This document shows, one piece after another, positions 35,729-63,978 of a stretch of DNA of 64,000 nucleotides. How positions within the stretch are numbered: position 1 is the first letter of the stretch; each line of letters opens with the position of its first letter. The stretch comes from Amyelois transitella (Eukaryota; Arthropoda; Insecta; Lepidoptera; Pyralidae): NCBI RefSeq assembly GCF_032362555.1, contig NC_083527.1, positions 7,254,001-7,318,000 on the forward strand, in the 5' to 3' direction. Both the position numbers and the translations under genes were made by a program. The notes under the pieces are model-generated. The model was not told the origin of the DNA. It was given only the letters and a program-made list of their open reading frames with translations, and did not search any database.

Positions 35729-38700
35729 ATGAATGTGAAAATTGTAATTTTTCTTGTCACTATTGCATTTACCATCGTGAATGCCGGTAAGTTTATTTTA
35801 AATTATTATTATTTTTCCCCATTTCTTATGTTAGTAAAGGATATATTTTTAACCGACTCCAAATAAGGAGGAGGTGTTCTCGACCGTATCTTTATACTTT
35901 GAAGTTAGACCGAATTACAAATCATTTTTAAAGCTACACAAATTATAGAATTAAAATGTGACATTTGATTAAAATCGGTTAAGTAGATTAGTGGATTTTA
36001 AATATATTTTCCCGCGATAAATTTCCAGTTATTGCTGTTCCCGTAAGAATTTTCAGGAGAATTACGTAGCATAGGTTTGATCTCCAATAATACATACAAA
36101 GTTTCATCAAAATCGGTCGGCGGTTTCACCTGTAATAGACGGACAGACAGATTTATTTAATACTATTAGTATGGATGTGTATACTTAAGGAGCGTCGATG
36201 GTCGAATTGTTAAGTTGCCCGCGTGAACTGCCAAAAAGACACAGGTTCGAATACCACCTCGGTCATGTACCAGTGACTATTTTCGAAAGTTACATTACAT
36301 TATTTTCACTAACCGATGCTCTTACGGTGATGAAAACTGCACATTCAGGAAACTAAAGGTATAACCACTGTATTCTATTCAATATGGGTTAGGTTTCCCT
36401 GCAAAGGTAGCTAGATAGGAGTAGCTTCGTGTAAAAACCTGACTCACCCAATTCAGGATCCATAGTCAAAGGCATACCCCAGGCTCCTCCCTAGAGTGGT
36501 GAGGACGTAAGCGGAACTTAAGTCAGGAAGAAGTAAGTGAAAAAATAGAGCCAAGTTGTTGATATGATCCCATAGGTCAGACGGGAACCGTATCTGACTT
36601 CCCCTGGATTGTAGACTAGTTACAGGATTAGTTTAAACAGAATCCTAATGATGAATGTGGCGATATCTATACCATAAATCATATCTAATCACATGACATT
36701 ACTCAATATCATGATGATAAAGTTGGCACGGATTGGAGCATATATACAACCTCCGACACAACATCGTCTGTCGCGCGGTTCCCCAGGCATCACACCAGCC
36801 TGGCGGAAGAACTTCCCTTTGTGGCGGTTGAGCCTGAACTATAGCTATCGGTGTAAAGGACTACACTGGGATAACAGTGTCAGGTTAACAGATTAAATAT
36901 ACCTAAACCTATAACATATAAGCCAAAAAAGAAAACAATTTGTCTCTCCGTCTCAAAGGGTAACAGACACCCGTAAATTAAAAATAAATTGAACTTGCGT
37001 GCATTTCATATAAGGCTTACCATCAGGCAGATTTGGTTTAAACACACTTAAAATCTCTATTATAATCCATACAATTTGCTGAATTGTATAAACATGGATC
37101 CAATATTAAATCTATAGTAATCGCAAATGTTAGATAGATAAAACTCTTTATTGGACCATAAGAGTAAAACATGCAAAACAGCACAAAAGAGACAGGCATG
37201 GTACAAAGGCGGACTTATCGCTAATGCAATCTCTTCCAGTCAACCTGATTTTAGATTTCTACCAACCACATTTTAGATTTCTATTTCAATCCGGTGTTGC
37301 CAAAAAAGGAAGATCTCAATAATTTGAATCTGAAATGTATCCGTGGAAGGACAACGATAAAAGTTAGAGAACGGATACAATCAGTTAACGATGATACAAG
37401 CGAAGAGGACGATGGTTATCGCAGATCTCATATGAATTTTGGTGCCACAGACAGCGAGACATGCGAGATTTGTGTCTGTTCTGTAGATGGAAAAGACGAA
37501 TATTGTAGTAAGAGGCCAGCAATGAACGTGAATGAGTGTATTCGAATGGCTAAAATTAATGACGATCACAATAGAAATGTTCCATTCGACGTTGACAGTG
37601 TTTTGTCGAGCAGAGTCAGAAGGAGAGGTTAGTTTTGAGTGAACGATTCATTGATCAGTGCAGCTGAATGAAATGATCTTCAAAATTGTATTTTTGGTGA
37701 TGTAAAATTGCGTATTACCGATGATTAGTCAAATAACCTCAAATATTTAGGCGGTCTGTTAAAACATATTTCTTTTCGTGGTTTTTTAAGTACTTTTTCG
37801 GATTCGGGACACAAGTTGTTAGTATTTAAACCAAGTTACGCCTAGGACATCTGTTGTACCTATAAATACTCAAATTTGCTTAAAATTTCTGCATTAACAA
37901 CAACAATAAGACTTCTTCTTTTGTTACTGTCATTACCTACACATTGTTAAATTCACTGTCAAATATTATAGTCTTATTTTTAAACAGTTTTGTATTGCAT
38001 AAGTTCGTATGTTATTAATCGACATTATATTCACCATAATCACATATTAGCCATATCTCTTTATCATCAAAGATATTTATTGCTACTAAATATTTTATAA
38101 CTTTATCTCATGTAAATATAACAATTCCCAATCAGATTTGATCTACCACTACGATGAAATCCCGTTACAAGTTAACGCCAAGTGCGTCCGTGGCATGTCT
38201 TACTACTCGAATAACCCCAAAGCCAACGATACCGACCTTGACGTGGAAACTGACATTGAGTCCTTGCTTGATTACGACACTAAGGAGATCTGCTTCTACT
38301 GCATCTGTTCCACCTCCGGCAACCACGCCGCCTGTCTCGACAGAGACCCTTTCTACTGCGAATACTACAGATACCTCAAAAACGAGACCAACATGGGAAA
38401 GGCCCGATATGGAAAACTCTTTAAGCAAGACAGGCCGGCTTTTTTCAGACAGCTCTCGTATAGAATCAGGAGAACTATGGACGAAGGCCTCTTCCAAATG
38501 GTGGACAATTACAAGTCGAGGCAAAGTGGATCCGGTACGGCTGGAAGTTTGATCTTCGAATTTGACTTGATGGCTTTTACTTTAACTCTTTTCTGACTTA
38601 CTGCACAAACTCACGTCATTCATAAGTTTAGGTTGATAGCTTTAAATTGTTTGTGTATATTAGTGAATTCATTCGTGTTGTGATTCGTGTTATGATCAGC

Positions 38701-41700
38701 CGCGAGTCGCCTTTTGAAACCAATCTTAGGATTAAGATGTTTTTACCTTCTGCCAATGTTAAAGATTTCAAGTTATTCTTAGTCGCCTTTAATGTTTAGA
38801 TCTGTTCGGATAAAATAACAACTAGAACTATGATCATTGATATAACAGACAATATCTATATGACTAAGAGATTAAGTGAGGGTTACGACACTGACTTTCT
38901 TATTTGGCAGTTGATACAATGTGTTTTCGGCTTATAAAGAGAAGATTGGTGATTGCAGGAGGCGACTCGTTGTGCTGCGACCACCCCGCCGGTCACCGTA
39001 TAAATCTCCACAACCAAATAAGAGACAAGATTCAAGCAATGAAGAGAAGAGTGCCAAAGGAAAATCTGTTGTCTGGTGGACAGCCAGGAACTGATTACGT
39101 AGATTTTGTTGTTAACAATGATAAATGAGATGACAGAAACGTTGTAAACGCACAATTTAATGATAGAAATGATGTGATTGATTTGTATTGCGGTACAAAT
39201 GATGCATGAAAATATTTATTGCTAGCTAATTGATTAATTATCAAGAATTAATGAGAAATTAATAAAATTAAGAAAACTATTCATTGCTCTACAAACTAGA
39301 ATGAGAAACAAGAATTGAGATAATTTTTAACTTCAACAATGGCTATAAAACTCAATATTTTCAAATAAAGAATTTGCAAGAAGATGGAAGTAAACATTTT
39401 GAGTAATTTAACCAGAATAGCAGAAGTTAATCAGTTTATAAAGAGCGACATATGGTCATTATTACATATAGTACAGCAACGTTATTCGTAAATTCTTTAG
39501 TCAAAATTCTTTTAATATCGGACTATCATAACTGATATAGATAATGGTTCTAAGAAAGAAAATTAAGAAAGAAATCTCATGAAAACATTGTGAATTAATT
39601 AATAGTGGTTGTATTGTGCAGTGTAATATTAATGTTCTTTTTTGTGATTGTGACTGGTTTTCTATTTTTATATTCAGTGTTGTAGTTTTGTGTAATAAAA
39701 ATGGTTAAAGTGAATTGTTAATTTGTGATTTCATTACTATCAGTTCTGTCATCATCAAAACTTCATTCATCAACTTTAATTCACAATTTAGCACATTATT
39801 CTTGTGGTCTATTTCGCTATTGACAAGCAATTACTTAGGTCTATATTTTTACAACAAAAATTGATATTACTTTATGGATTTAAAGTTAGAATTGCTTATT
39901 TTTAAGCACGCCATTTTTTGCAAGCACGGCACGATTTTTATTGCACGTTTTTTTGAGCTGCACTGATCATTAAAGCTCATTAGATTAGTATTTTATGTTT
40001 TAAATACATACACATAATCACATTTACCCTTATGGAGTCTCAGTTTTGAAGATACGGAAATGCCAAGTTCAGCTGTACGGCTTAATGATGGAATTGAGAC
40101 CCAGGTAGTGACTGGTTGCTAGCCCATCGCATTAACAAAGAATCCCAAGTTTATAAGAGTGAAACTGATAAGGATTATCACGAGTGAACTATTAAGAAGT
40201 AAGTATTTTTTTTTATCTAAGAAGAGTCTATCCAGCTGTTTAGGGCGATGTCTTTAGTTAAAAATGAAAAGACAAATATTTTTTGATAGTTGTTTGACAT
40301 ATAAAAAGGATTATAAAAGCTTTCATATTTAGATGCTCAAGAAATTAACCTTTTTTGTAAGGTGTAGACAGAGCTAACAATTTTGAAAATACCGACAAGC
40401 CACGTTCAGCTGTAAAACTTTATGATGGAATTGAGATTCAAATAGTGACAGGTTGCTAGCCCATCGCTTACAAAAGGAATCTCAAATTAATTAGCCGTGA
40501 GGTAAAAATTGTGTTACAAGGCTTTACTCGAGACAAAATAAAGGTGAACGCGGATTTGGCCAAGCCGCTTACATGATATTATAGAATCTAATTGTTTTTT
40601 ATGAACTTGTATGAAACCTCACACGCATCATATGACTTGAACCAAAGCATAATCTGCATTCACCTTTAATGTGAATACCATAAAATGTGCTGTATGATTT
40701 ATCTACAACTTAATTATGATAATGTTGCCGAGTGGTTCCCGGTACCAATACAAAAAGAATAGGACCACTCCATCTCTTTCCCAAGGATGTCGTAAAAGGC
40801 GACTAAGGGATAGGCTTACAAACTTGGGATTCTTTATTAGGCGATGGGCTAGCAACCTATCACTATTTGAATCTCAATTCTATCATTAAGCCAAATAGCT
40901 GAACGTGGCCATTCAATCTTTTCAAGACTATTGGCTCTGTCTACCCCGCAAGGGATATAGACTATACGTATGTATGTATGTATTATGATAATGTTAAAGA
41001 ATATAATGAAACAATCAAACTTGTAGGAGGAGTTCAGCAGTGTGTACCATTTGTGTCGCAATACACCACTTGTACGGATGGTAAGCAATCTTCAATTTTA
41101 ATTAACGTAAAAATTACTCAGACCTATCGCTCTTGTATAACTTATATTTGTAAATTGACGTCCAATGAAAATGCTGCAGTTTAGATACTGCTGTGTGGTA
41201 TCTAGTGGTTGAATAATCTAAGGAAAAAAGAATAGAACCACTGCATCTCGTTCCCATGGATGTCGTAAAATGCGACGAAGGGATAAGCTTATAAACTTGG
41301 GATTCTTCTTTTAGGCGATGGGCTAGCGACCTGTCACTATTTGAATCCCAATTCTATCATTAAGCCAAACAGCTGAACGTGGCCTGTCAGTCTTTACAAG
41401 ACTGCTGGCTGTGTCTATCCCTCGAGGGATACAGATGTGATTATAAGTATGTGTATAGAAATGCTTCAGAGCGTTTGACACTAGGTTATGGGTGATGCAT
41501 TGAAAGTCAATTCTCATGATGTTTCTTTTGTGGACAGAGAACAGTTGTTCGGGGTGCAAGGAGTGCCGGTGTGATGAGTCAGGTCAGTGGGCTTGCCAGG
41601 ACGTGACCAGGTGCCTTGGAATGGACTCTAGGGACCTCAACGAGAACTCCGTGGATCTGGCTTGGCAAACTATTGAAGACGGTGAGTTTTGAGAGTATCT

Positions 41701-44700
41701 GGTTCTCAACCAACAATCTTCTTATAAATGCTAATAAGATCCAATGCATTAAATTTACCCTTTCAAACGTAAGGCAGGCTAATACTGACATAATACTGGA
41801 AGGCCAGAAATTAGAATTTATTGAAAATACAAAGGAATTTTTAGGAATTATAATAGATGCAAAGCTACAGTGGGGTGCTCATTAGGGTGGGTCGCTTTTG
41901 TATGGAAAAAAATAAAATTGTCCAATACGTTTTGTAATAGTAAAAAAAACGTGACCCACATCCATATGTGAAAAAACAACGAAAAAAAAATTATCTAGTT
42001 CAACCCCTTCTACCCGCGCATTGAGTTTGAAAAACTGAAATTTTTGATTTTTTTGTGAATTATTTGAAAATCTATTTGTAGTGGCACATAGGAAAAATAA
42101 CTACATAAACTAATAAAATAAAGTACTTTTGGACTAAATTTTATTATTAAGAAAGAAAAATAAAGAAATAATAAGATAAAATAAAAATAAAGCATCTTCA
42201 AATCACGTTAAAATCTTTCTTACTTTCGAACTTAGGCATAAGCTTTCGTGAAATAATTTTATTCTTAATTAAAGCTTCTCGTGCTGTTTTGTGGCAAAGC
42301 TGCATAGATGCCTCTGTTACTGTTTTTACTGCCCGCTCCACAACTTGAGTATGACATGGTAGCCGCAGAAAAAGGACTTCATCATCACCACCTGACTCAA
42401 CTAGGGAATGAAGAGTCTCATCCGGAACATTCGTCAATATAGGTGGTTGCGAGTAAGATTGCTGCCAGTCTATCAAATCGATGTAAGACGAAGCGTTTAA
42501 ATTTATCTTAGGCACTTCAAAGACTCGAAGCTGAAGGGATTCAGATGGTTTCCTTGCCTTTAAAATGCGTCTAGCGGCAAGTTCTCTCACATGTTTTTGT
42601 TCATCAGATAACATAGACAAGAGCAAGTTCTCTGGGTGCGCAAAAATAGCATTTCGCTTTATTACAGGATCAACAACACTCTTCAATTCTTGCGGAAGAT
42701 ATCGAGAATAAAATACCAACTTCCAAAAGTGCCTTGCTCCATCTTTACATGTCGGATTTAATTTGATTTCAAACCAAATAGGGGCATATACTTTAACTAC
42801 AAAAGTAGCGAGTTGTTTCAGTTCGTTTGTAGGTATCTCAGTAGACACATATAAGCGCAAAATCCTGTTGGCCTTTGTTAGCCACCTGGCATGCGACATT
42901 TTTCCCGGAGAGCGATTAGACAAATCAGGAGAGAACTCACCACTTATGACGGCAGATGTGATATCATAAAGGTAACGTTGATCAGAACTGAGGTCTTTTA
43001 CATTTGAAATGTTTGGTAACATACCTTCTATCTTTTCAAACATGACAACCGAGCGCTTCTCACAATCATCTAATAACTTGCCGATAGTACCTGAATAAGT
43101 ATTAGGTCCTGTTGTGGTGCCATCAAGTTTTGCAAATAAATGTCTTAAGGGCAGTTCATTGAAGTGTAAAAGGCATATGATCCATTGAAGTGGTCGGTGT
43201 AAACGCTTTTCTAAAAGCCGTATGACTCCGCCGTATTTGCCCGTATTGGTAACCGTCCCATCACAACCTATAGCTAGAGTATCCTCTAGAGACATATTCA
43301 TTTGACCTGTTACTGTTTGAAATATAGCTGACTCCAACCCTTTTGCAGTTCCATGGCTGGGAACGGCATATCCGACATAAACTGATCCTGGTTCTTTAAT
43401 TATTGAAATATGTTCTTCCACAGATGTTAAGCGTTATTTTTTGTCCCCTTTCATAACGATTTTCATGGTCTTATCTTTTCTTCCATCAAAAAATAAGGCA
43501 GGAATAGTATCTAGTTGACCTTGAGATAAGGTTTCTTTTCGTAATTTTTGTCTCGCTCGTCGCAATTTCGACTTATCGATTACTTCGTTGTCGATGCTCA
43601 ATCTCATATCTTGTAAAACAGCAGAAGCGACAGCAGCAGCTGCTCTGTCCGATATACCGTATCGGTCACAGATTGTTGACAAATTCTTCAGAGATGATAT
43701 TTTACGTTTTTTCGATACTGTTTTTGATGAACTTGAGGGCAAAGTTTGTTCTTCATCGCTACTTTCAGACGTTACTGAGGTATTAGGATTTTCGTGAGAG
43801 GGGCCTGGTTCACAAACGCTAGAATCGTAATAGGATTTAAGCTTAATTTTTCTATCACTTAGTTTACTTGTCAATAAATCAACAGTTCCCATAATCATTT
43901 TTCTCTCTGTTCTCTGATCTATTAAAAAAGCTCGTTCCTCCTTAGGAATCTTTTGGTTTTTAGAACATTTACATAACTCTAAATCTTTACACTTCCATGA
44001 ACTCAAATCAAACAGTCTTTCCGAATTTCTATGAAAATCTTGAATCTTTTCTTCTGATAAACGCTTCAAAGATTTTAATAAATTTTTACACTTTGCGTGG
44101 TAACTTTTAATCAATTGCATCACACGATTATGGGACACAGTAGGAATAGACGCTTTTCTCCACAAATATTCAACTTTAGATGACACTATTTCAGATATCT
44201 CATTAATGGATGGCTCTTTTTTTGAATTGTTCCCAAGTTTAAGCTGATGTCGTACTAAATTGTAATATTTCATAACTTGTTTGTAAGTGGGTAGTTGATT
44301 TTCGTTAATTTCTTCCGACCTTTCACCCGGAACTAATTAGACGCACTGAGACAATGACGCGTGATCGACAGTTTACGCCCCCTTTCCCCACTCCTTCCCC
44401 CGCACTATACGCACGATTATTCTAATATTTTGGTTTAATTATTATTTGTATTACGTTTATCTCTGAGTATAATAATGTAATATCATTTTACGCCATGTAG
44501 TTTATACAATAAACTCTGAAACAATAAATACGATTTTAACAATTTTTCCGAATTTTCAAACGTCATGCGCGGGTAATTAATGTTGATAAAAATAAAAAAT
44601 AAATATACACGTTTTTAAGTCGCTACCCAGGTCATCTTTTCCGCACTATTATAAATCGAATTTTGAAAAAAATAATTTTCGACCCACCCTAGTGCTCATA

Positions 44701-47700
44701 TTTGTAAACTTTCCAATAGACTTAGCTCTGCCGCTTATGCTGTTAGGAGGATCCGACAAACATGAAACGTTTTGAATCCATCTTTTTACTTATGAACGGT
44801 TCGTCTAAATAACATTACATCTGTAAATAATTTGCCTTGCAAATTTGTATTATCAATAGATGAATTACTTGATGTAATAACGATTTCAGGTTTTAAGAAG
44901 AAGACACGAGATGATGCTGCAAGATTCGGTTCACCTCACGTGCCACGGCCGGGTTCAAATTATGATGACGAATTAATAGGTATTTATCACTATTAACAAT
45001 ATAGAAACCATTATAACTGTATAAGACAATATAAATTAAGGACGTCCTGGTAAAGAGTCAGGTCAAAAGTACCCGAAACCGCCGAGCTTGCATGAAGAGA
45101 GTTATGAATGTTTATGAAGCGAAGGAAGTATGCAGAGATCGTGGCAAGTGGAAAGAGGTAGTCTCTGCCTACACCTCCGGGAAAGAGGCGTGATTTTATG
45201 TATGTATGTATGTAGATGACATCCCACTTAAAACGGATTCGGACGACCAATCAATGGCATGGCTATGCGAGGCGTAATAAATATCGTTAGCTCCTTTACA
45301 ACGTAGGTCATGAACTAAACCGACACAACATAGATTGCGACTGGATCTTGTCCTTCCTGTCTCTAATGGCTTCCAGTTCGGCGTTCGTGTACATCGCAGC
45401 TAATCTGTGGCATAATTGAATAACTATTAACTACTAATTAGCTGTGCCCGCGACTTCGTCCGCGTGGAATAGTTATTTTGGGTGGGCGTCATGGGTTGTG
45501 GTGTACTTGGATGTGAAGGAAGGATGTGTCGTTATCAAATGAATCTCAGTATGAAAATGTATAAAGTCACAACAATTAGTTTCAATGTCACGTTCATCAG
45601 TACCTACAAGTTATCTAGTCTTTTATTCTGTCACTAGTTTTTCACTAGATTTGGCATTGCACCGATCTATATCTTCTCAAATGCACACGTTTCATTAATT
45701 TCAGGTTATGTTATTGGTATACCGAAAGAAACAGCACTTTTGCAATAAACCTCTATACGCACATTGCACTTTCATTAATAATTCTATTTTGAAAAATCTC
45801 AAGGTAAGTTTCGTATGTTTTAGAGATGTTAATAGAAAATATGTATTAAAAATGGTTAATTTTACAGGTGACATTGATAAGGAGAAATATGTTGATAGTG
45901 ATGTTGATCCATCCTCAGTTCCAAATGTGAAAGTATTCATGAATTCACAATTAGACTTTATGAAAGATGGGTTGGTGGATAGGTTCAAAAGATCGCTACT
46001 CAATAAGAATAAAACAAAGGACGCACATCCAATTAAGTTTTACCATGCTGTTGATGAGCTAAATGAAGGTAATATTAACATTAAAAAAAGGAAAATAAAG
46101 ATCTGGCGAGAGTCACATAAAACCTGATGTACCAAATCCAGGGTAGAGTTCATAGGCGGTCCCAAGGCATCATCTCTTCAGAGAGAAGCAGATACAACAA
46201 GGACAAACCCTAGCACAATGATATTGATTTTAATTATATACACCTCCAAGTATAACAATGGCTACAATTCTTCCTGAAAATCCTTAAGGAAGCAAAGCTT
46301 TGTAGAAAAGTTCTAATTTAACAAAACATTATTAAACAACTTTTTTATATAATAAAAACAACTTTTTTTTCAGATACATTGCAACACTCCAATAATTCTG
46401 GAACAATAGCCGCTAAGAAAGCAATTCCACTCCCCGCGTCACGAAGAAGTGGTCGGGTTGATGTTTCTAATTCATCTAACCCTCTACACATTGAATACAA
46501 ATTACCATTAAATGATTACCATATTACAGATAACAAAATTGACAGTATACACAACAATGAGAAAAAAGACATTGTTAATGATAAAAATCATGATTTTATG
46601 GGCAACAGGACAACAGAAGTAAAAGATAAAGAATTGTCTAAGTTGATTGTAAATGAACTCAAAAAAGGCACAGAAGTTGTCGGAGATAAAAATTCTCCAT
46701 TGATATCAAACATAACATTTACAAGAGAAAATGATACATTGACGGCCATGGCATTTATTGCTGGAAATCTGTTAAATAAATTGTGGAACTTAGAAAAGGA
46801 CAACCAAGGAGATTCAATGGAAAGTCAAGTATTGAAACACGAAAAAATTTCAGATTTAGTTGACTTATTTAAAGCCCCGTTGACTATAAGGCAAGAAACA
46901 TTCCTTAAAGATGCTTTAGAACATTTAGCAGGAGTGATGAGTAAGGGTGATGATGATAAAAACAACATTCCATTGTGTGATCAAGTTGCAAGAATCAAAG
47001 AAAATTTGGGAATATCTGCAAATTGTACACAACGTAAAAACTTAAACAAGGAGGAACTTAATCCTGAAAAAGTAAAAACGAAAGGAGATCATATCGAAAA
47101 AGTGCGACGTGCAGAAGTAACAAATGATGCCACTCTAGCTGCAGTGAAAAAACTTGATAATGTAATGACGTTGATTCAAAAATACGAGGAAGTTCAAAAA
47201 AATATAAATAATTTTAAAACGCCATCAACTAAAGAAGACGTTAAAAATACTTCATCAAAAAATGGTCCTAATGCAGCAGATTTTTTGTCGGGTAGTGAAA
47301 ATCAATCACTTAATGTATTTGGCAATGTTCTTGAAAAAGTGACCAAACTTCTTGTTCCCGAACAGAAACAAAAAAATATAGTAAAGTCAATAAGAAATAA
47401 AAATATACTCAGGAAAGATGAAGATTTGAAAACAAAACTCAAAAGAATATATGACATAGATTTAGAAAATTCAACTTTTACTTCTAAAGATAAAGTGGTA
47501 TTAGATTATTTGGTAAACCTCAGAAATACGAACTGTGAACTCGTTCATAATGTTTATGACACTCAAATGCCGGGAGGAGATATAATACAGAATTTATCAG
47601 AGTTTCTGAAAGTTAAATCGTTTGTTGATTTACTCAAACTCTTAGAACCAGAAAAAACCACTACAACCACAGAGTCATCTTCGAATAAAAATATTTTAAG

Positions 47701-49398: not shown

Positions 49399-49432
49399 AT
49401 TTGTAAAACATTTTGTACTTTTACATGTTTGT

Positions 49433-49438
49433 AATAAA
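49433..49438 (+). terminator. Polyadenylation signal, gene B
   Basis: AATAAA 35 bases after the gene B stop. Confidence 0.75.
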
Positions 49439-52800: not shown

Positions 52801-55800
52801 CTTTCCACTTGCCACGATCTCTGCATACTTCCTTCGCTTCATCCACATTCATAACTCTCTTCATGCAAGCTCGGCGGTTTCGGGTACGTGACGTATAAAT
52901 GCATAAAGAGACATTTCTACAATTGTAAGTACAAACCCATCTCTTCAGCTTCATCGTGTATTCTCGTGTCGTTCAGCCATTGTGACAGCTCTTCAAATGT
53001 CACCCTGGTTTCGACATTATTTCCCGTGACATCCGCAGCGGACCGCTTAGTTCTAGATTGTTCGTTTGTTGAGACTGAAATTAGATGAGATATTCTATTC
53101 TAAGTTTAATTAATATTGTGAAGTTGACGTTATTGAAGAAAATGCTGCAGTGCAGTTTGTTACCGCTTCTTCTGCACTGACGCCTTGGAAGCGGCAGTAA
53201 ACTTAGTTTAAGTTATTTATTTGACGTCAACCAATGTTGTTAAACCATACGTTTTGACAATTATTAAGCGATATATAGTATCCTATTGTAATGAATAAAA
53301 ATTTTGAATTTGAATATCATTGCGGATTAATTTCTTCTTCATTTCATTTTTTGTTTTAACAAGAAAATACGGGGATTCTATATCTATGATATATATGCCG
53401 TGTGGTTCCCGGCACCAATACAAAAAAAGAATAGGACCACTCCATATCTTTCCCATGGTTGTCGTAAAAGGCAACTAAGGGATAGGCTTACAAACTTGGG
53501 ATTCTTTTTTAGGCGGGCTAGAAACCTGTCACTATTTGAATCTCAATTCTATCATTAAACCAAACAGCTGAACGTGGCCATTTAGTCTTTTCAAGACTGT
53601 TGGCTCTGTCTACCCCGCAAGCAACTGGATGTGTAACCATGATCGATCCAATACGGGTCAGGTTCATCTGCAAAGGTTTTGGAGGTCAGACGGGAGTCGC
53701 TTCGTGTACCTGACTCACCCAATCCAGGATCCATGATCAAAGGCAAACCCCGGGCTCCTCTTCAGAGTGGTGAGGATGCAACCGGGACTAAAGACAGTAG
53801 GAAGAAGACATCTAAGCAATCGAAGCCGCTGGCGACAATTAAAAAAGTAAATAAATATATACGGGACAAATTACACAGATTGAGTTAGCCTCGAAGTAAG
53901 TTCGAGACTTGTTACGAGAGACTAACTCAACGATACTATATTTTATAATAAATACTTATATAGATAAACATCCAAGACCCAGGCCAATCAGAGAAAGTTC
54001 TTTTCTCATCACGCCCTGGCCGGGATTTGAACCCGGGACCTCCGGTGTCACAGACAAGCGTACTACCGCTGCGCCACAGAGGCCGTCGAACAATTAATAA
54101 CAAAAAACAATTATGTAGTAACTTCAACTTACTTTCAGTGTGTGTGTGGTTGGTGGTGCCGTGTGGTTCCCGGCACCAATACAAAAAAGAATAGGACCAC
54201 TCCATCTCTTTCCCATGGATGTCGTAAAAGGCGGCTAAGGGATAGGCTTATAAAACTGCGATACTTTTTTTAGGCGATGGGCTAGCAACCTGTCACTATT
54301 TGGATCTAAATTCCATTATCAAGCCGAGCAGCTGAACGTGGCCATTCAGTCTTTACGGGACTATTTGCTCTGTCTACCCCGTAAGGGGTATGGACGTGAC
54401 TATATGTATGTATGTATATACTTACTTTCAGACTTCAAGCTAGCTATAGCCACAGTGATCTTCTTGTTACTGAAGAGCGTCTCTTCTCTACATTCTTCTG
54501 TGCCACACACCCATCTTCCCTCCACACAGGTGCATGTGACGCAGCCCGTACACAGGTTTTCTGTAAAAGGACAAATCCTTTTAGGATCTAAAACTCGTGA
54601 ACAATTTCAATTTTTGCAGAATTGTGAATAATATCTCTCAAAACGCCAATACAAATGCCGTGTTCCCGGCACCAATACAAAAAAGAATAGGACCACTCCA
54701 CCATAGATGTCGTAAAAGGCGACTAAACAAACTTGGGACTCTTTTTAGGCGATGGGCTAGAAACCTGTCACTTCATCCTGAAAACGAGTTTGTAAGCCTA
54801 TCCCTTAGTCACCTTTTACGACGTCCATGGGAAAGAGATGGAGTGGTCCTATTCTTTTTGTATTGGTGCCGGGAACCACACTCAATTCTATCATTAAGTC
54901 AAACAGCTTTTAGGCTTACAGAGAGTATATTAGTATGACATGAAATTTAATAGATAATGTACCTTTATTGCAGTCAGTGTAAGTTGATATCATAGGTATG
55001 CAATCCATATTTTGATAATCTTCATCTGTAAAAAAATAATTAAATTTTAGTATTAACGTTACACAAACCATTTAAAAAACTGGCCAAGTGCGAGTCTGTT
55101 TGTTACTTTTTCAAGCAAAATCTGCTGGACGGATTTTGATGGAATTTTGTGGACACGTAGAATGTAGGTAACTTTGAATAACGTCTTAGCTGTTTGGCTT
55201 AATGATAGAATTGAGATTCGAATAGTGACATGTTATTGCTAGTCCATCGCCTTAAATAGGAATTCCAAGTATATAAGCCTATCCCTCAGTCGCTTTTTAC
55301 GATATCTATGGGAAAGAGATGGAGTAGTCCTGTTCTTTTTTCTATTGGTGCAGGGTACCACACTCAATTCTATCATTAAGCCAAACAGCTTTTGGGTTAA
55401 ATGATAGAATTGAGATTCAAATAGTGACTTATTTCTTAGAGTCTGTGTCTTAGTCGCCTTTTACGACATCCATGAGAAAGACATAGAGTGTCTCTTTTTT
55501 TAAAAGTGCTGGAAACCACATGTCATATGCTAGTAAATTTAAAATAAATAAAAATAAACACATACGGGACAAATTAAACGGATTGAGTTAGCCTCGATGT
55601 AAGTTCGAAACTTGTGTTACGAAATACTTACTCAACGATACTATATTTTATAATAAATACTTATATTATATAGATAAACATCCAAAACCCAGGCCAATCA
55701 GAAAAAGTTCTTTTCTCATCATGCCCTGGCCGGGATTCAAACCCGGGACCTCCGGTGTCACAGCTGCGCCACAGAGGCCGTCAATAACAAACTTACTTTT

Positions 55801-57229
55801 TTCTATAATGTTATACATCATGGCGTCGACTTTACTGAGCAATAGGTTGTTGGGGGGAGATTTATCTTCTTCCTCGGGTAAGTTAAGTAAGGTTGACCCA
55901 GCCATGTAGAACTGACATCTGGAAATAAGGTAATCTAAAAATTTTTTGGCAAACGTTCAGGTCAAGAGTACCCGAAACCGCCGAGCTTGCATGAAGAGAG
56001 TTATGAATGTGGATGAAGCGAAGGAAGTGTGCAGAGATCGTGGCAAGTGGTAAGATGCAGTCTCTGCCTACCCCTCCGGGAAAAAGGCGTGATTTTATGT
56101 ATGTATGTAATCTACAAAATCTGACCGCGTCTGACCTTTTACAGGGAACATTACTCGCGTGCATGGTAAATTTTTTAAACAAGGCTCTTAAATTTTTTTT
56201 AGGTCTTTGCTCACTTTAGAATTTCTAGATAGTTACCTGAAGGTCTATTTTATCAAAATCGGTATAGTAGGTATTAAGTTTGTTCCTAAAAACAAAACTT
56301 TTGTATTATATTTGTATAGAAGTTTATCGGTCTGGTTGCGATGTTAAACATAGTGTGTTTTAGCACTTTCACATGCAGATTTTGAAAGCCTATCAATAGG
56401 ATTTTGAAACCTTTTTTGAATCTCAATTCTATTATTAAGCCAAACAGCTGAACATTGCCTATCAGTCTTAACAAGACTGTTAACTCTGTCTACCTCGCAA
56501 GGGATATAGACGTGACTATATGTATGTATGTATATTACTTAGGTGTTTCCAAAGGTATGCAGTCATGTTTGAAGCAGACTCGGCATTCCTCCTCTGTGTA
56601 CCTGCGGTATATGGACATTTGCTTTGTGTAATAGAAACCATTTTCTGATGCGTGGGTTGCTGAAAAAAATTTCGAAGTCAGTGTAATAATAAAAAGAATC
56701 AAGGGGCAGGATGAGCGAAGCGAAGCGCAAAGACACTACCTATATTTTCTTAAAATATAGGTATCGACATTATTTGAGTAATGGGCTAGCAACGTGTCAC
56801 TATTTGAATCTCAATTCATCTGAACGTGGCCTTTTTTTTTGTTATTGAAGGGGAAATCCTTTTTACGGGCAACTCCCCGGGTCTTCACCCAGACGTGATT
56901 GTATTATGTAATCTTGATCTCTATTAAGCCACACAGCTGAACGTGGCCAAACAGTCTCAAAAAGACTGACTGTGTCTTTTTGAGACTGTTTCCTTTGTCT
57001 ACCCCGCAAGGGATATAGACGTCATTATATGTATGTATGCATGTAATCCGTTAGATGGCGCTGATTTCAAACCTAGTTTAACCCACCGTTGGCAAAACAA
57101 ACCAAGTTATAACCTCAAAGTTGTCAAAATGAACAATGTGGATTGTTTTATAGAATTTAAGAAGTCACAACACTCACCGGACGCGCCGTAAATGCCGCAG
57201 AGGCACAGACAAACATACAAACTCGACAT
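49833..57229 (-). CDS. Gene C: secreted cysteine-module / helical pro-protein, paralogue of gene B
   Basis: Coding exons, in order: 57229-57178, 56659-56539, 55918-55797, 55025-54963, 54560-54426, 53074-52937, 52220-51897, 51633-50188, 50020-49833. All junctions are GT-AG and in phase, giving 862 residues. Signal peptide 1-17 (MSSLYVCLCLCGIYGAS); a short module C43-x2-C46-x4-C51-x7-C59; an eight-Cys module C107, 117, 123, 126, 129, 131, 138, 143 matching gene B Cys for Cys within one residue of spacing; furin-type RTKR|S at 172-176; a polar region; a 482-codon helical Lys-rich exon (with RRSG, RIRRS); a strongly basic 62-residue tail. Exon 7 begins KKTKSTRG as gene B exon 44890 begins FKKKTRDD. 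Fast divergence outside the cysteines. Function unknown; secretion and processing are inferred. Confidence 0.85.
51690..51860 (+). repeat. F1 SINE-like repeat, diverged (gene C intron)
   Basis: Antisense to gene C; head block 'aataggaccactccatttct' to 'gactgatggctctgtct', tail lost. Confidence 0.75.
52625..52890. repeat. F1 piece (+) and F2 tail (-)
   Basis: 52625-52740 is a diverged F1 3' half; 52745-52890 is an inverted RTE tail starting (TACA)n. Just past gene C exon 53074-52937. Confidence 0.8.
53105..53315 (+). repeat. Interspersed repeat, family R7
   Basis: Best copy: 'gttgacgttattgaagaaaa' to 'gaataaaaattttgaatttg'. Confidence 0.8.
53398..54088. repeat. F1 / SINE-B chimera followed by SINE-A
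   Basis: F1 (53398-53620, +) switches at 'ctaccccgcaag' into the middle of SINE-B (53621-53805, +); SINE-A follows inverted (53866-54086). Confidence 0.85.
54159..54415 (+). repeat. F1 SINE-like repeat
   Basis: Complete; its tail ends ~10 bases from gene C exon 54560-54426 (beside the donor on the minus strand). Confidence 0.9.
54656..54882. repeat. Two F1 halves head to head
   Basis: A + 5' half (54656-54785) abuts a - 5' half (54786-54882). Further F1 pieces at 55185-55375 (-) and 55375-55525. Confidence 0.8.
55561..55782 (-). repeat. tRNA-derived SINE-A
   Basis: Inverted; ~13 bases of the tRNA-like head are deleted, so the A box is lost. Ends 15 bases from gene C exon 55918-55797. Confidence 0.9.
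55955..56110 (+). repeat. F2: RTE-like LINE 3' end
   Basis: Antisense to gene C, in intron 2. F1 pieces at 56400-56530 (+) and, interrupted, 56770-57040 (+) lie further right. Confidence 0.85.
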
Positions 57230-57291
57230 ACCGGCGATAACTGTTCCGGAGTCGGGTCCGAGTGGCGCGTGTTTTGGAAAAAAGCGAAACA

Positions 57292-57305
57292 GGGACGGAC
57301 TTAGG
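57292..57305 (-). promoter_or_regulatory. Shared 14-base promoter motif, gene C
   Basis: Minus strand reads CCTAAGTCCGTCCC, 63-76 bases before the gene C ATG; identical to gene B. Confidence 0.7.
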
Positions 57306-57397
57306 ATACTTTAGAATGTAATGTATGTGGGTGAATCTTGAGATTCGGCGTCAGTTGATTCCCCTGGCGAAATTTTTTTTTAGTATTGGATGCTAAA

Positions 57398-57598
57398 TCC
57401 TACTACTATTATAAAGGCGAAAGTTTGTATGGATGTTTGTTACTCTTTCACGCAAAAACTACTGAACCGATTACCATGAAATTTGGTATGTAGGTAGCTG
57501 AAGACCCAGAATAACACATAGGCTACTTTTTATCCCAGAGTTCCCGCGGGATTGATAGGGTTTCCATGCGGACGAAGTCGCGGGCGGCCTCTAGTTGT
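57398..57598 (-). repeat. Interspersed repeat, family R6
   Basis: Inverted full copy, ending 'gtcgcgggcggcctctagtt'. Confidence 0.88.
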
Positions 57599-57599
57599 A

Positions 57600-58986
57600 C
57601 ATAATTACTATCATGCCTCAATTAGATCATACATATTAGTAGCTTAAAAAATATATTTTGGTTCATGATTTTAATTCTGCGGGTAGTTTATGTCGCCGGG
57701 CAACGTAAATTGCGCCTCTCAAGATTTACCCATGTATGTGTGCTAGCTAGTTGCAAGAGGAATCCCAAGTTCATAAGCCTATACCTTAGTCGCCTTTTAC
57801 GATATCCATGGGAAAGATATGGCGCGTCTAAACACAGCCGCCCAATCTCGTGACTGACTGTGCCTACCTCGTTAGGTTTTGAAGAGTTATATATATACAT
57901 TTTTAAATAAGTGTTTCCCCGTTTCATCGGTATTTTCCTTAGAAAAGAATAGATTTATTTTCAAAATTGTATACAAGTTATCACTTGTTGACGTCACATG
58001 ATTTAAATCTAATTATATCTAGCGCTTCCAAAGCGCATTTGTAGAAGTAGCAGCGGAACGAACTACACTGCAGCATTTTCACTGGACGTCAATTTACAAA
58101 TATTAAGAGATCGCTCTTAAATCTAAATTGTAGACGAATACACTACACATTGTCTATATATATATATATATATAAAAAAGGCAGTGAATTAGGAAAAATT
58201 TCTGATAAACCATGTTTTTTTTATATCATATACAGAGGTTAATTGGATTGCATTAAGAGGAAACAGACTTCGTCAGTTAAAAATGATTTTATTCTAAGTA
58301 TAGAGTCACAGGACAAATGGTCAGGTCAAGAGTACTTACCCGAAATCGAGGAGCTTGCACGAAGCGACTTATCAATGTGGACGGAGCGAAAGTATGCAGG
58401 GATTGTGGCAACTGGAAGGATGTAGTTTCTGTCCACCGCTCCGGGAAAGAGTCGTGATTTTATGTATGTATATAAAGTAGAGCGTCAGTGGTCGAATCGG
58501 TATTATCGAATGCTTAGTTAAAACGCGGTTGGTACCGGTTCGAATCCCACTGCGGCCATGTACCAATGACTATTTTCGAAGTTAGTACATTAGTTTGATA
58601 ACTAACCGATGCTCTTGCGGTGAGGGAAAATATCGTGAGGAAACCTGTACATTCAGGCAACTGTATGTGCAACTAAATGATCCAATACGCTTATGGTTAA
58701 AGTTATGGAGGTCAGACGGGTGTCGTTTCGCGTAAAAACCTGACTCACCCAATCCAGGATCCATGGTCAAGCGTTCACCCCGGACTCCTCTCCAATTCGG
58801 TGAGGATGCAACCGGAACTAAATACAGGAAGAAGAACAAGCATAGAGTTGTATGTAAATGAAAAAAAAGTCATGAAAATAGAATAGAATAGATTTATTTT
58901 CAAAATTGGAAACAAGGTATCACTTATTGACGTCACATAACTTAAATCTAATTATAACTATAGTGTAAAAGAAAAAAAAACGAGAT
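57600..58986. other. Gene C / gene D intergenic, repeats only
   Basis: F1 piece 57740-57810 (-), R7 piece 57950-58100, (TA)n at 58157-58174, diverged F2 tail 58315-58475, SINE-B 58480-58850, then an LTR/LINE-like AT stretch. Confidence 0.6.
58480..58850 (+). repeat. SINE-B, longest copy
   Basis: tRNA-like head 'agcgtcagtggtcgaatcgg', B box GGTTCGAATCCC (58537-58548), body, and end 'ggatgcaaccggaactaaat'. Confidence 0.82.
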
Positions 58987-59000
58987 CCTAAGTACGTCCC
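58987..59000 (+). promoter_or_regulatory. Shared 14-base promoter motif, gene D
   Basis: CCTAAGTACGTCCC, one base from the gene B/C motif, 81-94 bases before the gene D ATG. An initiator-like TCAGTT lies at 59066-59071. Confidence 0.65.
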
Positions 59001-59080
59001 AGCGTTCTTAAACGTGATTTTTTCATTGTTTGTAAACAGTTTCTGCGGCGGCTCGCGTTTTACATTCAGTTGGTTCAGCG

Positions 59081-62000
59081 ATGTTGTTCCTGCTGCTCCT
59101 GTACCTTGCTTCCCAAAGCTGGGCGAAAGGTTTGTGGGAATCTTTCAAGAATTATTTTATTTATGGTGAGGAGTTAACATAGATTTGTAGATACTAACTG
59201 TTTGTGACTTCTGTCTTTTAATATGATGTTGTGCTACCCTGGTGGCGATTAAATATTTGTGAAAAACTGATCAAGGGAAAAGCCGAGCGTCGATGGTCTT
59301 AATCGTACCTGGGTTATGAATGAATGAATGAAAATTTATTAAAAAACCAACAGACCTGAAAAGACTGTTATAACTCCTTTAGCTTAGTATGGCTTAATGA
59401 TGGAATTGAGATTCAAATAACGACATGTAGCTAGCCCATCGCCTACAACAAGAATCCCAAGTTTATTAGCATTTCCCTCAGTCGCCTTTTACTATAACCT
59501 TGGGAAAAAATATGGAGCAGACCTATTCTACACAGCACTATAACAGGAATTCCCGAAATTCAGCGAAATCTATACGCCACAAGTTACAAAAATAAAAAAT
59601 AAAAATCACGCGACGCTATCAGTCAAAACAGCGAAAAACCTAAATCGCGCAAGCAAAGATTTCACGGATTGGAGCTATATATACAACTTCCGACACAACA
59701 TCGTCTGTCGCGCGGTTCCCCAGGCGTCACACCTAGCCTGGCGGAAGATCTTCCCTTTGGTGGCGGTCGAGCCGAATCATCGCTCCCGAATGAGATTTAT
59801 AGTTGAACATAGTAGTAGCATTTACAAGAATACTTATTTATTGCATCTGAATGCAAGTCCTAGTATACAACCCTTTGGTTTACGGAGGTCAGAAGTCAGT
59901 CATTCTTTGCGGAAACTAGTCTTTCTCATTCTAACATAATATTACGCTAATATTTTTATAGACTTACGTTTGCTTGCCTATTTTAGTGAGCTTTTAAATT
60001 TATTTAATTGTGTGATAATTTTTAATGATAAACACAAATAGTACTCTATGTTCTTATCAGACTAACTATTACAGTGTAACTATTACTTATTACCTATACT
60101 AATATTATAAAGCTGAAGAGTTTGTTTGTTGGAACGCGCTAATCTCAGGAACTGCTGGTTCGAATTGAAAAATTCTTTTTGCGTTGAATAGACCATTTAT
60201 CGAGGAAGGCTTTAGGCTATATAACATCACGCTGCAACTATAAGGAGCAAAGAAATAATGGAAAATGTGAAAAAAAAAACAGGGAAAATTATTCATCCTT
60301 GAGGACTTCAATAATGCCCAAAATAACTATTCCACGCCGAAGTTGCGGGCACAGCTAGTAATTTATAAATTGCGTAGTCACAGTTTTATTACAAAATAAT
60401 TATCACACCTCTTTCCCATAGGAAAGGCAGACCCTCATCAATTTAAAATTTCTAGAACAAATAATTTAAAACGGTCTATCATCATTACAATAAATCTGTG
60501 ATTGTGTGATTATTAATGTTTGAAAATGTAACCACGGCCGGTTAATCCTGTCAAATCGTCAGGAAAAAATGGCGTATGTTCGCGGTTATTCCTAAGTATA
60601 TGCAGACATTGATTTATCTTTTATTAATTACGAGTATTATGTATTCCCGTGTGCCAAATTTCATCAAAATCAAGTATATTTTGCATGAATGAGTTACAAA
60701 CATACATTCCTAAAAATTTTCGCATTTATAATATTAGTAAGAAGTAGTTTGCCGGAACCACAGGGCACCAATAGAAAAAAGAATACGACCACACCGTCTC
60801 TTTGCCATGGATGTCGTAAAAGGCGACTAAGGAATAGGCTTATAAACTAGAGATTCTTCTTTTAGGCGATGGGCTAGCAACCTGTTACTATTTGAATCTC
60901 AATTCTATCATATTATGCAAATAAAAGTTTGAATTTGAATTTTGAATTTGAAAATCTTAAAGCCAATTAGCTGAACGTGGCCTATCAGTATTTTCAAGAC
61001 TGTTGGCTCTGTCTACCCCGCAAGGGATATAGACGTGATTATATTTATGTATGTTCCTTCTAAGGGGCAACAACTAGAAGACATATCATTAGTTCATTCA
61101 ATCTCATTTCCTGGTGCTCAACTTTCGTTCACAATTTTGTTTAGAAAACATTTAGTCTCAAAAATTAAGCGGAGTAAGACCATGTTTCAAAACAGTTTAC
61201 TTTTGGCGTCCTCCGCCGTTACATTGAAGAGAAAGTTCAAACACACACACATACATACATAAATCACGCCTCTTTCCCGGAGGGGTAGGCAGAGACTACG
61301 TCTTTCTTCATGCAAGCTCGTTTGATTAATCTTATATTATCTTACTCATCGTCAATGTTTCATCTGAAAAATGTTTTTATGTGAGATGTAGGTATTTATT
61401 TTCGTACAACTTATTAAAATTCATTCATTATTGTTATAAAAAACAATTTAATCATTATTATGGGACACTTCATATCACTATCATTCATATTTCACAACAT
61501 TGGTTGACGGCAAATAAATTATTTAAAACTAAATTTACTGCCGCTTTCAAAGCGGCAGTGCAAAGGAAGCGGAACAAACTGCAATGTAGCATTTTATTCA
61601 ACAACTTCAACTTCTCAACAATCCAAACAGAATAGAAATGTGATTATTAGTAGTAGTCGGTTTAGTAGTAGTAGTTTAACTTCAGATTATGTAGTTTATT
61701 CGCTAGTTTTTTATTATCTGTAGTTTAGACTTTACCTATATTGCTTAATTAATTAATTATTTATAAATAATGGTTGACCATCTTGTTTTCAGACCTGTAA
61801 TCATGAAATTTGAAAAGACTTGTGGGAAAACTATATAAACCTAATAAAAAAAGCAATTTAAATGTTTGTTTAAAAAATAATGTTAATTAAATTAATTAAT
61901 ACAGGCATTAAACGCGCACGTAATGTATCCTAATTTTATCTTGAACATCAACTATTTCTTATCAGTAAGATATTGCTTATTTAAAAATGTTTGTGAGTCC

Positions 62001-63978
62001 TTTCAGGCAACTAAGGGATAGGCTTATAAACTTGGGATTCTTCTTTTAAGCAATGGGCTAGCAACCTTTTACCATTTCAATCTCCATTCTATCATTAAGC
62101 CAAATAGCTGAACGTGGCCATTTAGTCTTCAAGATAGTTGGCTCTGTCTACCCCGCATGGGATATAGACATGACCATATGTATGTATGTATGTATAATAG
62201 ATTTAACTCTTTCAGATGTGCCCCACGATACGAACTACAGGTTGCAGAACATCTCTTCATGCCCTGAAACCGGTTATTTCTTCAGAAGAGAGCCAAGCGT
62301 GAACACTCTTCTTGGACATTGCTACCTCTGCTTCTGTCAGAACGACAGAACTGCTGTGTGCTGGCGGAGGGATAATAAGAAGTGCGACGTACAACATTAC
62401 AAGCATAACACCACTGTTGTTAAGAAGTAGGTTTATTTTTTATAAGCGTCGCGTCCCGGCTGCGCACAGGCAGTTATGATTATTATTTATACATTACTAG
62501 CTGTATCGCTAACGTTGTTTTGCCATATAAATAGTTTTGAAGTAATTTCTAGTTGAAAAAACAATGAAAAAGGGTGGACAACACTTATCACTAAGGGGTA
62601 TGAAAAATAGATGTTGGCGGATTCTCAGACCTACTCAATGTGCTCACAAAATTTCATGAGAATCAGTCAAGCCGTTTCGGAGGAGTACGGGAACGAACAT
62701 TGTGACACGAGAATTTTATATATAAGATGAACCTACCTCAGAAAACACTCTTTCTAACATAACAAACAGGAATAAAATCCGTGTGGTTTCCGGCAACTTT
62801 AGAATAAAAATACTCCCATATCTTTCCCATGGATGTCGAAAAAGGAGACTAAGGGATAACATTTGCTTATGGACTTAGGATTTCTCTTGTAGGCGATGGG
62901 CTAGCAACTTGTCAATATGTAAATCTCAATTCCATCATCAAGCCACAAAGCTGAACGTGGCCTTTCATTCTTTTAAAGATTGTTAACTCTGTCTATATGT
63001 GACTTTATATATGTATGTACATATGTGTACAAAATCCGTGTACAACTTTCCGATTTAGATTACCGAGATCATACATACAGACAGACAACGTATAACAAGG
63101 GGAGTTTATAGTATAATATGTCGTGATAATAAGGGATTTCGTTAAGGGATTTTCGTTACACGTGAGCTCCTCTCACACTGAAAATCCCGTCATTTGTTTG
63201 TTTTTGTAGAAATTTTGGAAAATCTTGTCTAAGTGCATGCATGCCATTCAAATTGGCAATGCTGCCAGCCTTCTAGGCACACTCCCGCATGTTGATGCTA
63301 TGCAGGGACTGTACAATTTATAAATTAAATTTTAGTTTGTAGTCATCTTTTTTCTTTATTTTTATAAGTAGTTTTAGTTTTAAATTAATTAGTTTGTAAA
63401 AGTATCTATTTTCTTTCTTTTTATAAGTAGTTTTAGCTTTAGTTTTAATTTGATTTAATTATAATATTTATTATAAATATCAGAAAAGTGCTACACCACT
63501 TTGGAAACCTAACATTTAAATCTCTAGCTTGACCACTTATTGACCCCACCATGCCATTTAAATATCTAACTAGACCACTAAGGAAAATGATATGCCATTT
63601 AAACCTTTAGCTGGACCACTTATTGACCCTACCATGCCACTTAAATCTCTAGTTGCAGTTTGGGCTGTGCTTTTTATATCAGTCAATAAGTTAGTGGCTT
63701 TTTTAAAATATTTAGACTAGCTACAAGAATTTTGATGGGAAATTTAAAAATTATATTTTTTAAATTTCTATTTGGGAATTTTACTTTATATAAATTAGGT
63801 ACTATTTACTTTAACTACTTCTGAATGTGTATATTGTTGTACCAAATTTGATTGAGGACTAGTAAGATTAGCGTTTATTCGGTACATAAGGTTTTTTTTT
63901 ATGTTTTCAGGGAAAATAGAGTGAGAAGAAGTCCTCTTGGTCTTGGTGATATATTTTTTAAGGACGCAGCGAGGGAAG
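59081..63978 (+). CDS. Gene D: third member of the cysteine-module family, partial
   Basis: Coding exons 59081-59129 (signal peptide MLFLLLLYLASQSWAK), 62216-62426 and 63911-63978, with in-phase junctions; the last ends in phase 1 at a GTTTGT donor, so the gene continues to the right of the window. One module: C32, C52-x2-C55-x-C57, C65, C73, the same pattern as gene B modules 1 and 2. It is followed by the furin-type site RVRR|S (90-94) and then SPLGLGDIFFKDAAREG. The first donor (GTTTGT) is weak but the same type is used in gene C exon 53074-52937. Whether it has a helical region like B and C cannot be seen here. Confidence 0.65.
59350..59530 (-). repeat. F1 SINE-like repeat, diverged (gene D intron 1)
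   Basis: Inverted; preceded by a stub of the SINE-B head (59284-59310). Confidence 0.75.
59663..59773 (+). repeat. 111-base repeat shared with gene B intron 1
   Basis: Near-identical to 36727-36834. Confidence 0.8.
60100..60357 (-). repeat. Interspersed repeat, family R5
   Basis: Inverted full copy, ending 'gaagttgcgggcacagctag'; closest to the copy at 7-268. Confidence 0.9.
60748..61055 (+). repeat. F1 SINE-like repeat with a 40-base insert
   Basis: Complete copy interrupted at 60914-60960 by 'gcaaataaaagtttgaattt'-type sequence. Confidence 0.88.
61250..61640 (-). repeat. F2 tail and R7 copy
   Basis: 61250-61320: inverted RTE tail behind a CACACATACATACATA run. 61470-61640: inverted R7. 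Confidence 0.75.
62005..62196 (+). repeat. F1 SINE-like repeat, 3' part
   Basis: Tail (TATG)n ends 20 bases before the acceptor of gene D exon 62216-62426. Confidence 0.85.
62500..62732 (+). repeat. LINE 3'-end-like repeat
   Basis: Contains 'aaaatttcatgagaatcagt' and 'gccgtttcggaggagtacgg', a block common at the ends of insect non-LTR elements. Confidence 0.6.
62778..63015 (+). repeat. F1 SINE-like repeat, diverged
   Basis: Head 'tccgtgtggtttccggcaac' to TATATGTATGTA, gene D intron 2. Confidence 0.82.
63232..63323 (+). pseudogene. C-terminal remnant of a LINE protein
   Basis: Frame reads AIQIGNAASLLGTLPHVDAM then GLYNL and TAA, resembling the GNAA..LGTLP.. ending of R1/Jockey-like polyproteins. 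Confidence 0.55.
63500..63656 (+). repeat. Short tandem array, ~50-base units
   Basis: About three to four imperfect units built on 'atgccatttaaa' and 'ctagaccactta..gaccc' in gene D intron 2. Confidence 0.75.

Follow-up and report, generated by a model that had tools for sequence, protein, structure and literature searches.

Insect pacifastin precursors, for example those of the locust SGPI and PMP peptides and BmSPI71-73 of Bombyx mori, carry the signal peptide in a first exon of its own and contain repeated small cysteine (Cys) modules in which two residues separate Cys2 from Cys3 and one separates Cys3 from Cys4; basic cleavage sites between the units are common and paralogues are often clustered, as laid out in the accessible part of PMC2689174. 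The stretch of DNA analyzed here, 64,000 nucleotides (nt) of the moth Amyelois transitella (contig NC_083527.1, positions 7,254,001 to 7,318,000; hereafter, the window), contains what appear to be three neighboring, related genes for secreted proteins, B (+), C (-) and D (+), which resemble pacifastin genes in these respects. The Protein Data Bank (PDB) sequences that come nearest to their modules, at marginal scores, would by their names also be pacifastins. The cluster differs from pacifastins in that its five intact modules have neither asparagine (Asn) after Cys2 nor threonine (Thr) after Cys5 and depart from the consensus in Cys1-Cys2 spacing (all five) and Cys5-Cys6 spacing (four of five); moreover, B and C have an extra Cys pair, the cleavage sites are of the R-x-K/R-R type, and there is a giant, apparently helical C-terminal region, which the accessible part of PMC2689174 does not mention.

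According to the available portions of the respective reports, the three pacifastin genes of Bombyx mori, BmSPI71-73, encode 2, 4 and 13/11 domains (PMC3278429), BmSPI73 has been detected in cocoons (PMC4393245), and E-strain Ostrinia has raised levels of pacifastin transcripts in the bursa copulatrix (PMC4007636). These reports indicate places worth searching and do not count as evidence for the B/C/D cluster. Moth silk sericins and mucins are likewise secreted moth proteins with short Cys-x-Cys motifs (CXCX, CXCXCX); in the excerpts of PMC9745057 used here, the motif lies near the C-terminus and the body of the protein is rich in serine (Ser). In the cluster, by contrast, the motif is N-terminal and the body is rich in lysine (Lys), Asn and leucine (Leu). 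The von Willebrand C (VWC) domain has a CxxCxC...G..C...C core and a second subdomain with CCxxC. The modules of the cluster have the CxxCxC core in common with VWC and SVWC domains but differ from them by the lack of a second subdomain, of a Pfam match and of any VWC chain among the PDB matches.

Gene models and a common upstream element

A 14-base-pair (bp) element, CCTAAGT[C/A]CGTCCC (CCTAAGTMCGTCCC), has exactly three exact matches in the 64-kilobase (kb) window, one before each of the ATG codons of B, C and D and always on the coding strand; the B and C copies are identical, and the D copy differs by one base. When up to three mismatches are allowed, the window contains five matches against a shuffle mean of 3.27 (20 of 100 shuffles have as many). 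Such a mismatch-tolerant count is unremarkable, so it is the exact matches and where they lie that carry the claim. In a control with 3000 random triples of 200-bp segments, three triples had a 14-mer in common when one mismatch was allowed, each time through a string that has 9-25 copies, compared with three copies of the upstream string. Moreover, CAGT, as found in insect initiators, occurs at -15, -14 and -14 of the B, C and D ATGs, respectively (D has a second CAGT at -44); 15 of the 2345 ATGs in the window have CAGT at -15 or -14. The element was first spotted by eye on comparing the upstream stretches; together with CAGT, it argues strongly, if after the fact, for three genuine starts that are related to one another. 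The earlier note, which had described B, C and D as related secreted cysteine-module genes, is thereby supported more strongly than its author could know. The presence of a near-identical element before all three genes further suggests that they are switched on together, presumably in a common tissue. The 10-letter string TAAGTCCGTC of the element also occurs in 15 papers in the literature, of which the five among the matches listed are biomedical by title. TATAAA is found at -54 in B alone (35675-35680); TATAAA, TATATA and TATAAG are all absent within 200 bp upstream of C and D.

Each gene starts with a hydrophobic exon that ends in phase 1 and was judged by eye to encode a signal peptide, as the earlier note had proposed, and coherent exon chains can be read from these exons onward; splicing and secretion are inferred. 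Gene B comprises nine exons from 35729 to 49398, all eight introns are in phase 1, and 1,297 amino acids (aa) precede the stop; its last exon was newly placed in this analysis. The exons of gene C run from 57229 down to 49833. In a short form, the signal exon would be spliced directly to exon 54963-55025, which gives 781 aa in frame and ends in a stop. Exon 2 (56539-56659) alone hits a stop or ends in a phase (2) unfit for exon 54963-55025, and the newly found exon 3 (55797-55918; donor 8/9, acceptor 11 of 14 pyrimidines, phase 2-1) makes the chain coherent, resulting in a longer model of nine exons and 862 aa. An exon of this quality occurs in 2 of 500 Markov-2 versions of the stretch, with limits set after the exon had been seen. 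The longer model is preferred because gene D also has a phase-2 intron and because exons 2-3 of C give a D-like alignment; the phase-2 introns of C and D sit at different places relative to Cys6. Gene D has three exons, the second of which ends in phase 2, like that of C, and then leaves the window edge.

A pseudogene or transposon artefact is held unlikely, given that the B and C chains are open to a stop with AATAAA close by and that the upstream element does not behave as a dispersed repeat within this stretch (three copies within one mismatch). Intron 5 of gene B harbors a 2.8-kb DNA transposon (41883-44691) whose ends are 12-bp inverted repeats (TAGGGTGGGTCG) and which is flanked by a duplication of 8 bp (GTGCTCAT); its long minus-strand coding stretch (300 + 411 codons with an in-frame stop between them) has no Pfam match at an expectation value (E) up to 0.01. 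Gene B also has a possible alternative terminal exon (38959-39128), which contains a CC pair and gives a sub-threshold SLOG-type match (Pfam YAcAr, E 0.0069); with 16.6 bits against a cut-off of 28.2, the match was treated as chance.

Cysteine modules and giant exons

Five intact CxxCxC modules are encoded by the cluster: the six-Cys modules of B (m1 and m2) and D, and the eight-Cys modules of B and C. A six-frame scan with the pattern CxxCxC-x(4-11)-C-x(3-12)-C, which was composed after the modules had been seen, yields five matches, all within the cluster, versus a mean of 0.07 (maximum 1) in 60 Markov-2 versions of the window. The eight-Cys modules of B and C are homologous, as had been claimed from their spacing: their Smith-Waterman score is 110 versus 30.5 +/- 5.3, and none of 200 shuffles scores as high, even with Cys masked. 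The six-Cys pairs m1-m2 and m2-D are also alike (0 of 200 shuffles each). The earlier statement that B, C and D share modules with a Cx2C or Cx2CxC core stands for the five intact modules. Neither m1-D nor any pairing of a six-Cys with an eight-Cys module aligns above shuffles, so the link between the two module types rests on the common core and the profile searches.

A sixth, degenerate module is encoded by exons 2-3 of gene C. Its alignment with the D module is matched by 3 of 1000 shuffles (gap cost 9), compared with 14 of 200 for exon 2 alone (gap cost 11); Cys2, Cys3, Cys5 and Cys6 are kept, and Cys1 and Cys4 are lost. In pacifastins, Cys1 and Cys4 form a bonded pair, according to the accessible part of PMC2689174. 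The joint loss may hint at loss of that pair, though only as a hint because a bonded pair would be struck by chance in 3 of 15 pairs. An AlphaFold model of the D module built from three sequences has three strands within the module, preceded by a further strand and followed by a helix (mean predicted local distance difference test score, pLDDT, 63; predicted template modeling score, pTM, 0.51).

When a profile of the five modules was compared with PDB chain sequences, 13 matches were obtained at E up to 10, the best with E 0.0091. Two of them name pacifastin outright; the names of the others (SGPI, PMP/LCMI, serine protease inhibitor I, trypsin inhibitor) we take to denote the pacifastin family, which makes 13 of 13. 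A profile of the three six-Cys exons gave nine matches, of which eight were recognized as pacifastins by name (best E 0.43), and the eight-Cys module of B alone had one match, SGPI-1 (E 2.1). The earlier note was right that the modules resemble pacifastin or VWC domains and match neither exactly, and these searches lean toward pacifastin.

The pacifastin consensus was taken from the accessible part of PMC2689174. Its core, Cys2-x2-Cys3-x-Cys4 followed by Cys5 and Cys6, is present in all five intact modules, the sixth being without Cys1 and Cys4 in its best D alignment. Glycine (Gly) stands 2-3 residues after Cys4 and 3-6 before Cys5 in four of the five (D has none). The Cys1-x(9-12)-Cys2 spacing fails: 41, 35 and 19 residues intervene in B m1, B m2 and D, and eight in both eight-Cys modules if their second Cys is counted as Cys1. 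Four residues between Cys5 and Cys6 are found in the C module only, the others having 10, 7, 7 and 5. Because the consensus fails at Asn and Thr in all five modules and at Cys5-Cys6 length in four, the modules are termed pacifastin-like and are not filed as proven members of the family.

The modules are accompanied by candidate processing sites, as had been anticipated: the R-x-K/R-R motif occurs six times, with three sites in B, two in C and one in D. Five of the six modules are followed by such a site, namely the six-Cys modules of B (RVRR, RIRR), the D module (RVRR), and the eight-Cys units of B (RFKR) and C (RTKR). No such site follows the degenerate C module, and the extra C site (RIRR) lies within the giant exon.

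The giant open exons of B and C comprise 806 and 482 codons, respectively, compared with a longest stop-free run of 210 in 200 Markov-3 versions of the window. Their amphipathic periodicity at 100 degrees exceeds that of 60 shuffles (C, 0.96 versus 0.69 +/- 0.06; B, 0.79 versus 0.67 +/- 0.04), and at 170 degrees it is not above shuffles; the exons thus look amphipathic-helical, judging from their residue pattern. AlphaFold rendered the C giant exon (two sequences) as all helix with a pLDDT of 36, which is useless as a model. No Pfam match was found for the giant exons, and a PDB search with a giant-exon profile gave none at E up to 1. The C-terminal ends of the two exons are more alike than their whole lengths. 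The last 100, 150 and 200 aa are matched by 1, 26 and 3 of 1000 shuffles, and the first 100, 150 and 200 aa by 11, 7 and 14 of 500. Because several window sizes were tried, this similarity is only suggestive of homology confined to the ends. For the giant Lys-rich helical exon that B and C had been said to share, the great open length and the helical periodicity are borne out, and similarity over the whole length is weak.

Two further exons that had been proposed as common to B and C fared less well. The B exon with FKKKTR, compared with two candidates in C for a shared KK(K/T) exon, scored no better than chance (106 and 123 of 200 shuffles as high), and homology of the short last exons was not borne out (58 of 200). 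The description of these last exons as basic is accurate for C (62 aa); the B exon placed here is not markedly basic (net charge +2, 12% proline, 14% Ser), although a different exon may have been meant.

Proposed working and alternative readings

We put at about even the chances that three or more related genes with matching upstream elements lie clustered here, that they encode secreted multidomain precursors, and that the pacifastin-like modules of these are released by furin-type cleavage and bind extracellular targets. Each protein would carry a signal peptide and then at least one pacifastin-like mini-domain (Cys2-x2-Cys3-x-Cys4...Cys5...Cys6). In B and C, the eight-Cys version of the module would come next and then a Lys/Asn-rich region of very large size that shows helical periodicity; D is cut off by the window. 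Furin-type proteases would then cut at the R-x-K/R-R sites and free the small disulfide-locked modules from the helical part. The modules might bind extracellular targets, most likely proteases, via the Cys5-Cys6 loop, whose sequence is different in every copy; target binding is a guess. Beyond this, it is a tentative possibility that the genes represent a new co-regulated family of secreted polyproteins, in which a pacifastin-like fold would have lost its canonical inhibitor loop, been duplicated with varied loops, been fused to a giant helical carrier and come to be driven by a new proximal promoter element.

A series of observations weighs against this cluster of pacifastin-like precursors. 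With E values up to 10 allowed, Pfam returned no row for pacifastin (PF05375) for C (781-aa form), D, the two isolated eight-Cys modules or the N-terminal 461 aa of B, nor did it at E up to 1 for exons 2-3 of C, it being understood that HMMER filters discard most matches above about 0.1. The best E of the five-module PDB search is marginal, the sole PDB match of the profile of the B/C eight-Cys pair is a fibronectin type I chain (E 7.3), and of two Cys-preserving shuffle controls one had no match and the other had five pacifastin-type matches (best E 0.56). Cys spacing thus carries much of the pacifastin signal, with other residues adding some. In none of the five modules does Asn directly follow Cys2 (E, F, Y, K and V are found instead) or Thr directly follow Cys5; because both consensus residues are absent throughout, canonical protease inhibition by these modules is doubtful. 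The similarity of the six-Cys modules is gone once Cys is masked (106 of 200 shuffles as high for m1-m2, 200 of 200 for m2-D), m1 and D do not align above shuffles (48 of 200), and none of the six pairs of a six-Cys with an eight-Cys module aligns better than shuffles (32 to 123 of 200). Foldseek with the D module model gave 257 matches at E up to 10 and none at 0.001. Over their whole length, the giant exons of B and C are only weakly similar (BLASTP E 0.60; 4 of 200 shuffles as high). Several splice sites are of middling quality. Donor scores are 6/9 for B exons 3 and 6 and for D exon 2, and 5 for C exon 6, values that 16% and 43%, respectively, of the GT dinucleotides in the window reach; the donor of C exon 2 is weak, and B exons 4 and 6 each have an acceptor with pyrimidines at 7 of 14 positions.

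The earlier note had called the family unrecognized and proposed a Pfam search; the modules of B, C and D were scanned, and the absence of a match is consistent with that view. Similarly, none of the literature titles among the matches listed presents a protein of this layout. In viral contigs, the C giant exon retrieved 13 stretches and the eight-Cys alignment 24, none confirmed, the collection not being expected to hold moth DNA; in genome contigs, from a collection likewise not expected to hold it, the giant-exon alignment retrieved 229, none confirmed.

The main rival assigns the modules a structural role in a secreted material such as silk, cement, a spermatophore or an egg covering, where they would serve as disulfide cross-linkers or assembly domains, with the Lys-rich helical region as bulk polymer and no protease inhibition. 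We consider it unlikely, although modules without the pacifastin loop residues and large Lys/Asn-rich exons would suit it, as would the motifs of moth silk proteins in the excerpts of PMC9745057. Very short 5' leaders, as the models imply, and a common upstream element would likewise be expected for genes co-expressed in a gland. However, no clear internal repeats are found in the giant exons when one half is compared with the other (65 of 200 shuffles as high for B, 9 of 200 for C), B and C are not Ser-rich like the sericins of those excerpts, and the silk motifs described there lie at the opposite end of the protein from the modules discussed here.

It is also rather unlikely that B is in fact two genes, a short one (35729-39128) with two modules and a CC tail and a second one that begins no later than 41027 and for which no signal exon of its own was found. 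The in-frame terminal exon with its stop, followed 133 nt later by AATAAA, is what such a split would produce; B has two six-Cys-type modules compared with one each in C and D, and the acceptor of exon 41027 is barely better than that of the terminal exon (7 versus 6 of 14 pyrimidines). On the other hand, no copy of the upstream element occurs between 39128 and 41027 at up to three mismatches, exon 3 joins exon 4 directly in phase 1 with the whole chain open to the stop, and the terminal exon could also be an alternative 3' end of a single gene. A reading of the modules as reduced first subdomains of VWC, in proteins that modulate growth factors or adhesion, is improbable. It is encouraged by the CxxCxC...G..C...C core and by the fibronectin type I match noted above, and the C module has sub-threshold Pfam matches to FnI_RECK (E 0.89) and VWF-like (E 1.3); these are all that Pfam offers in this direction, with no VWC or SVWC match at E up to 10. 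No adjacent Cys pair, and hence no CCxxC second subdomain, occurs in B, C or D outside the optional exon 38959-39128, and none of the 13 PDB matches is a VWC chain.

Feature positions, surroundings and meaning

The features of the cluster are collected in Table 1.

Table 1. Exons of genes B, C and D and copies of the upstream element, in window coordinates
Feature	Position	Strand	Remarks
Upstream element, B copy	35615-35628	+	CCTAAGTCCGTCCC; -114 from ATG
B exon 1, signal peptide	35729-35786	+	ends phase 1; donor 8/9
B exon 2, six-Cys module m1 then RVRR	37277-37627	+	phase 1-1
B exon 3, six-Cys module m2 then RIRR	38136-38534	+	phase 1-1; donor 6
Possible alternative B terminal exon (CC, stop)	38959-39128	+	short isoform 325 aa; acceptor 6/14 pyrimidines
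B exon 4, eight-Cys module part 1	41027-41080	+	acceptor 7/14 pyrimidines
B exon 5, eight-Cys module part 2	41538-41681	+	
B exon 6 (FKKKTR)	44890-44979	+	phase 1-1; acceptor 7/14, donor 6
B exon 7, RFKR site	45868-46068	+	phase 1-1
B exon 8, giant, Lys/Asn/Leu-rich, helical periodicity	46374-48791	+	806 aa
B last exon	49220-49398	+	59 aa + stop; AATAAA 35 nt after stop
C last exon, basic	49833-50020	-	62 aa; AATAAA 94 nt after stop
C exon 8, giant, helical periodicity	50188-51633	-	482 aa
C exon 7 (VKKTK)	51897-52220	-	
C exon 6, RTKR site	52937-53074	-	donor 5
C exon 5, eight-Cys module part 2	54426-54560	-	
C exon 4, eight-Cys module part 1	54963-55025	-	
C exon 3, completes degenerate module, keeps frame	55797-55918	-	phase 2-1; found in this analysis
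C exon 2, degenerate module (CRVC)	56539-56659	-	phase 1-2; weak donor
C exon 1, signal peptide	57178-57229	-	ends phase 1
Upstream element, C copy	57292-57305	-	-76 from ATG
Upstream element, D copy	58987-59000	+	CCTAAGTACGTCCC; -94 from ATG
D exon 1, signal peptide	59081-59129	+	ends phase 1
D exon 2, six-Cys module	62216-62426	+	ends phase 2; donor 6
D exon 3, RVRR site	63911-63978	+	phase 2-1; gene continues past window

Elsewhere in the window lie ordinary neighbors (1415-30224). When ten open stretches were run against Pfam, five had a match: a Kazal exon (1415-1831), a SNARE protein (7371-8069), a ubiquitin-conjugating enzyme (12525-12977, minus strand), SDE2 (15637-16551) and a galactosyltransferase exon (29883-30224). 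Five sequences resembling tRNA-His (14809-14880, 20568-20639, 26559-26630, 27907-27978 and 54012-54083) were detected by ARAGORN, four of them also by Rfam, and one of the five lies inside an intron of gene C; they are probably the heads of a tRNA-derived short interspersed element (SINE).

If the cluster has been read correctly, the upstream element is a cheap handle: it predicts co-expression and would allow further members to be sought, including the rest of D and genes beyond the window. If the genes do form a polyprotein family, the promoter element would be a mark of membership by which the remaining genes and the tissue of expression might be traced. Again if the cluster has been read correctly, a small protease-inhibitor fold would have been dismantled, with the reactive-site residues lost, one disulfide pair lost and another gained, and rebuilt into large secreted proteins within one cluster.

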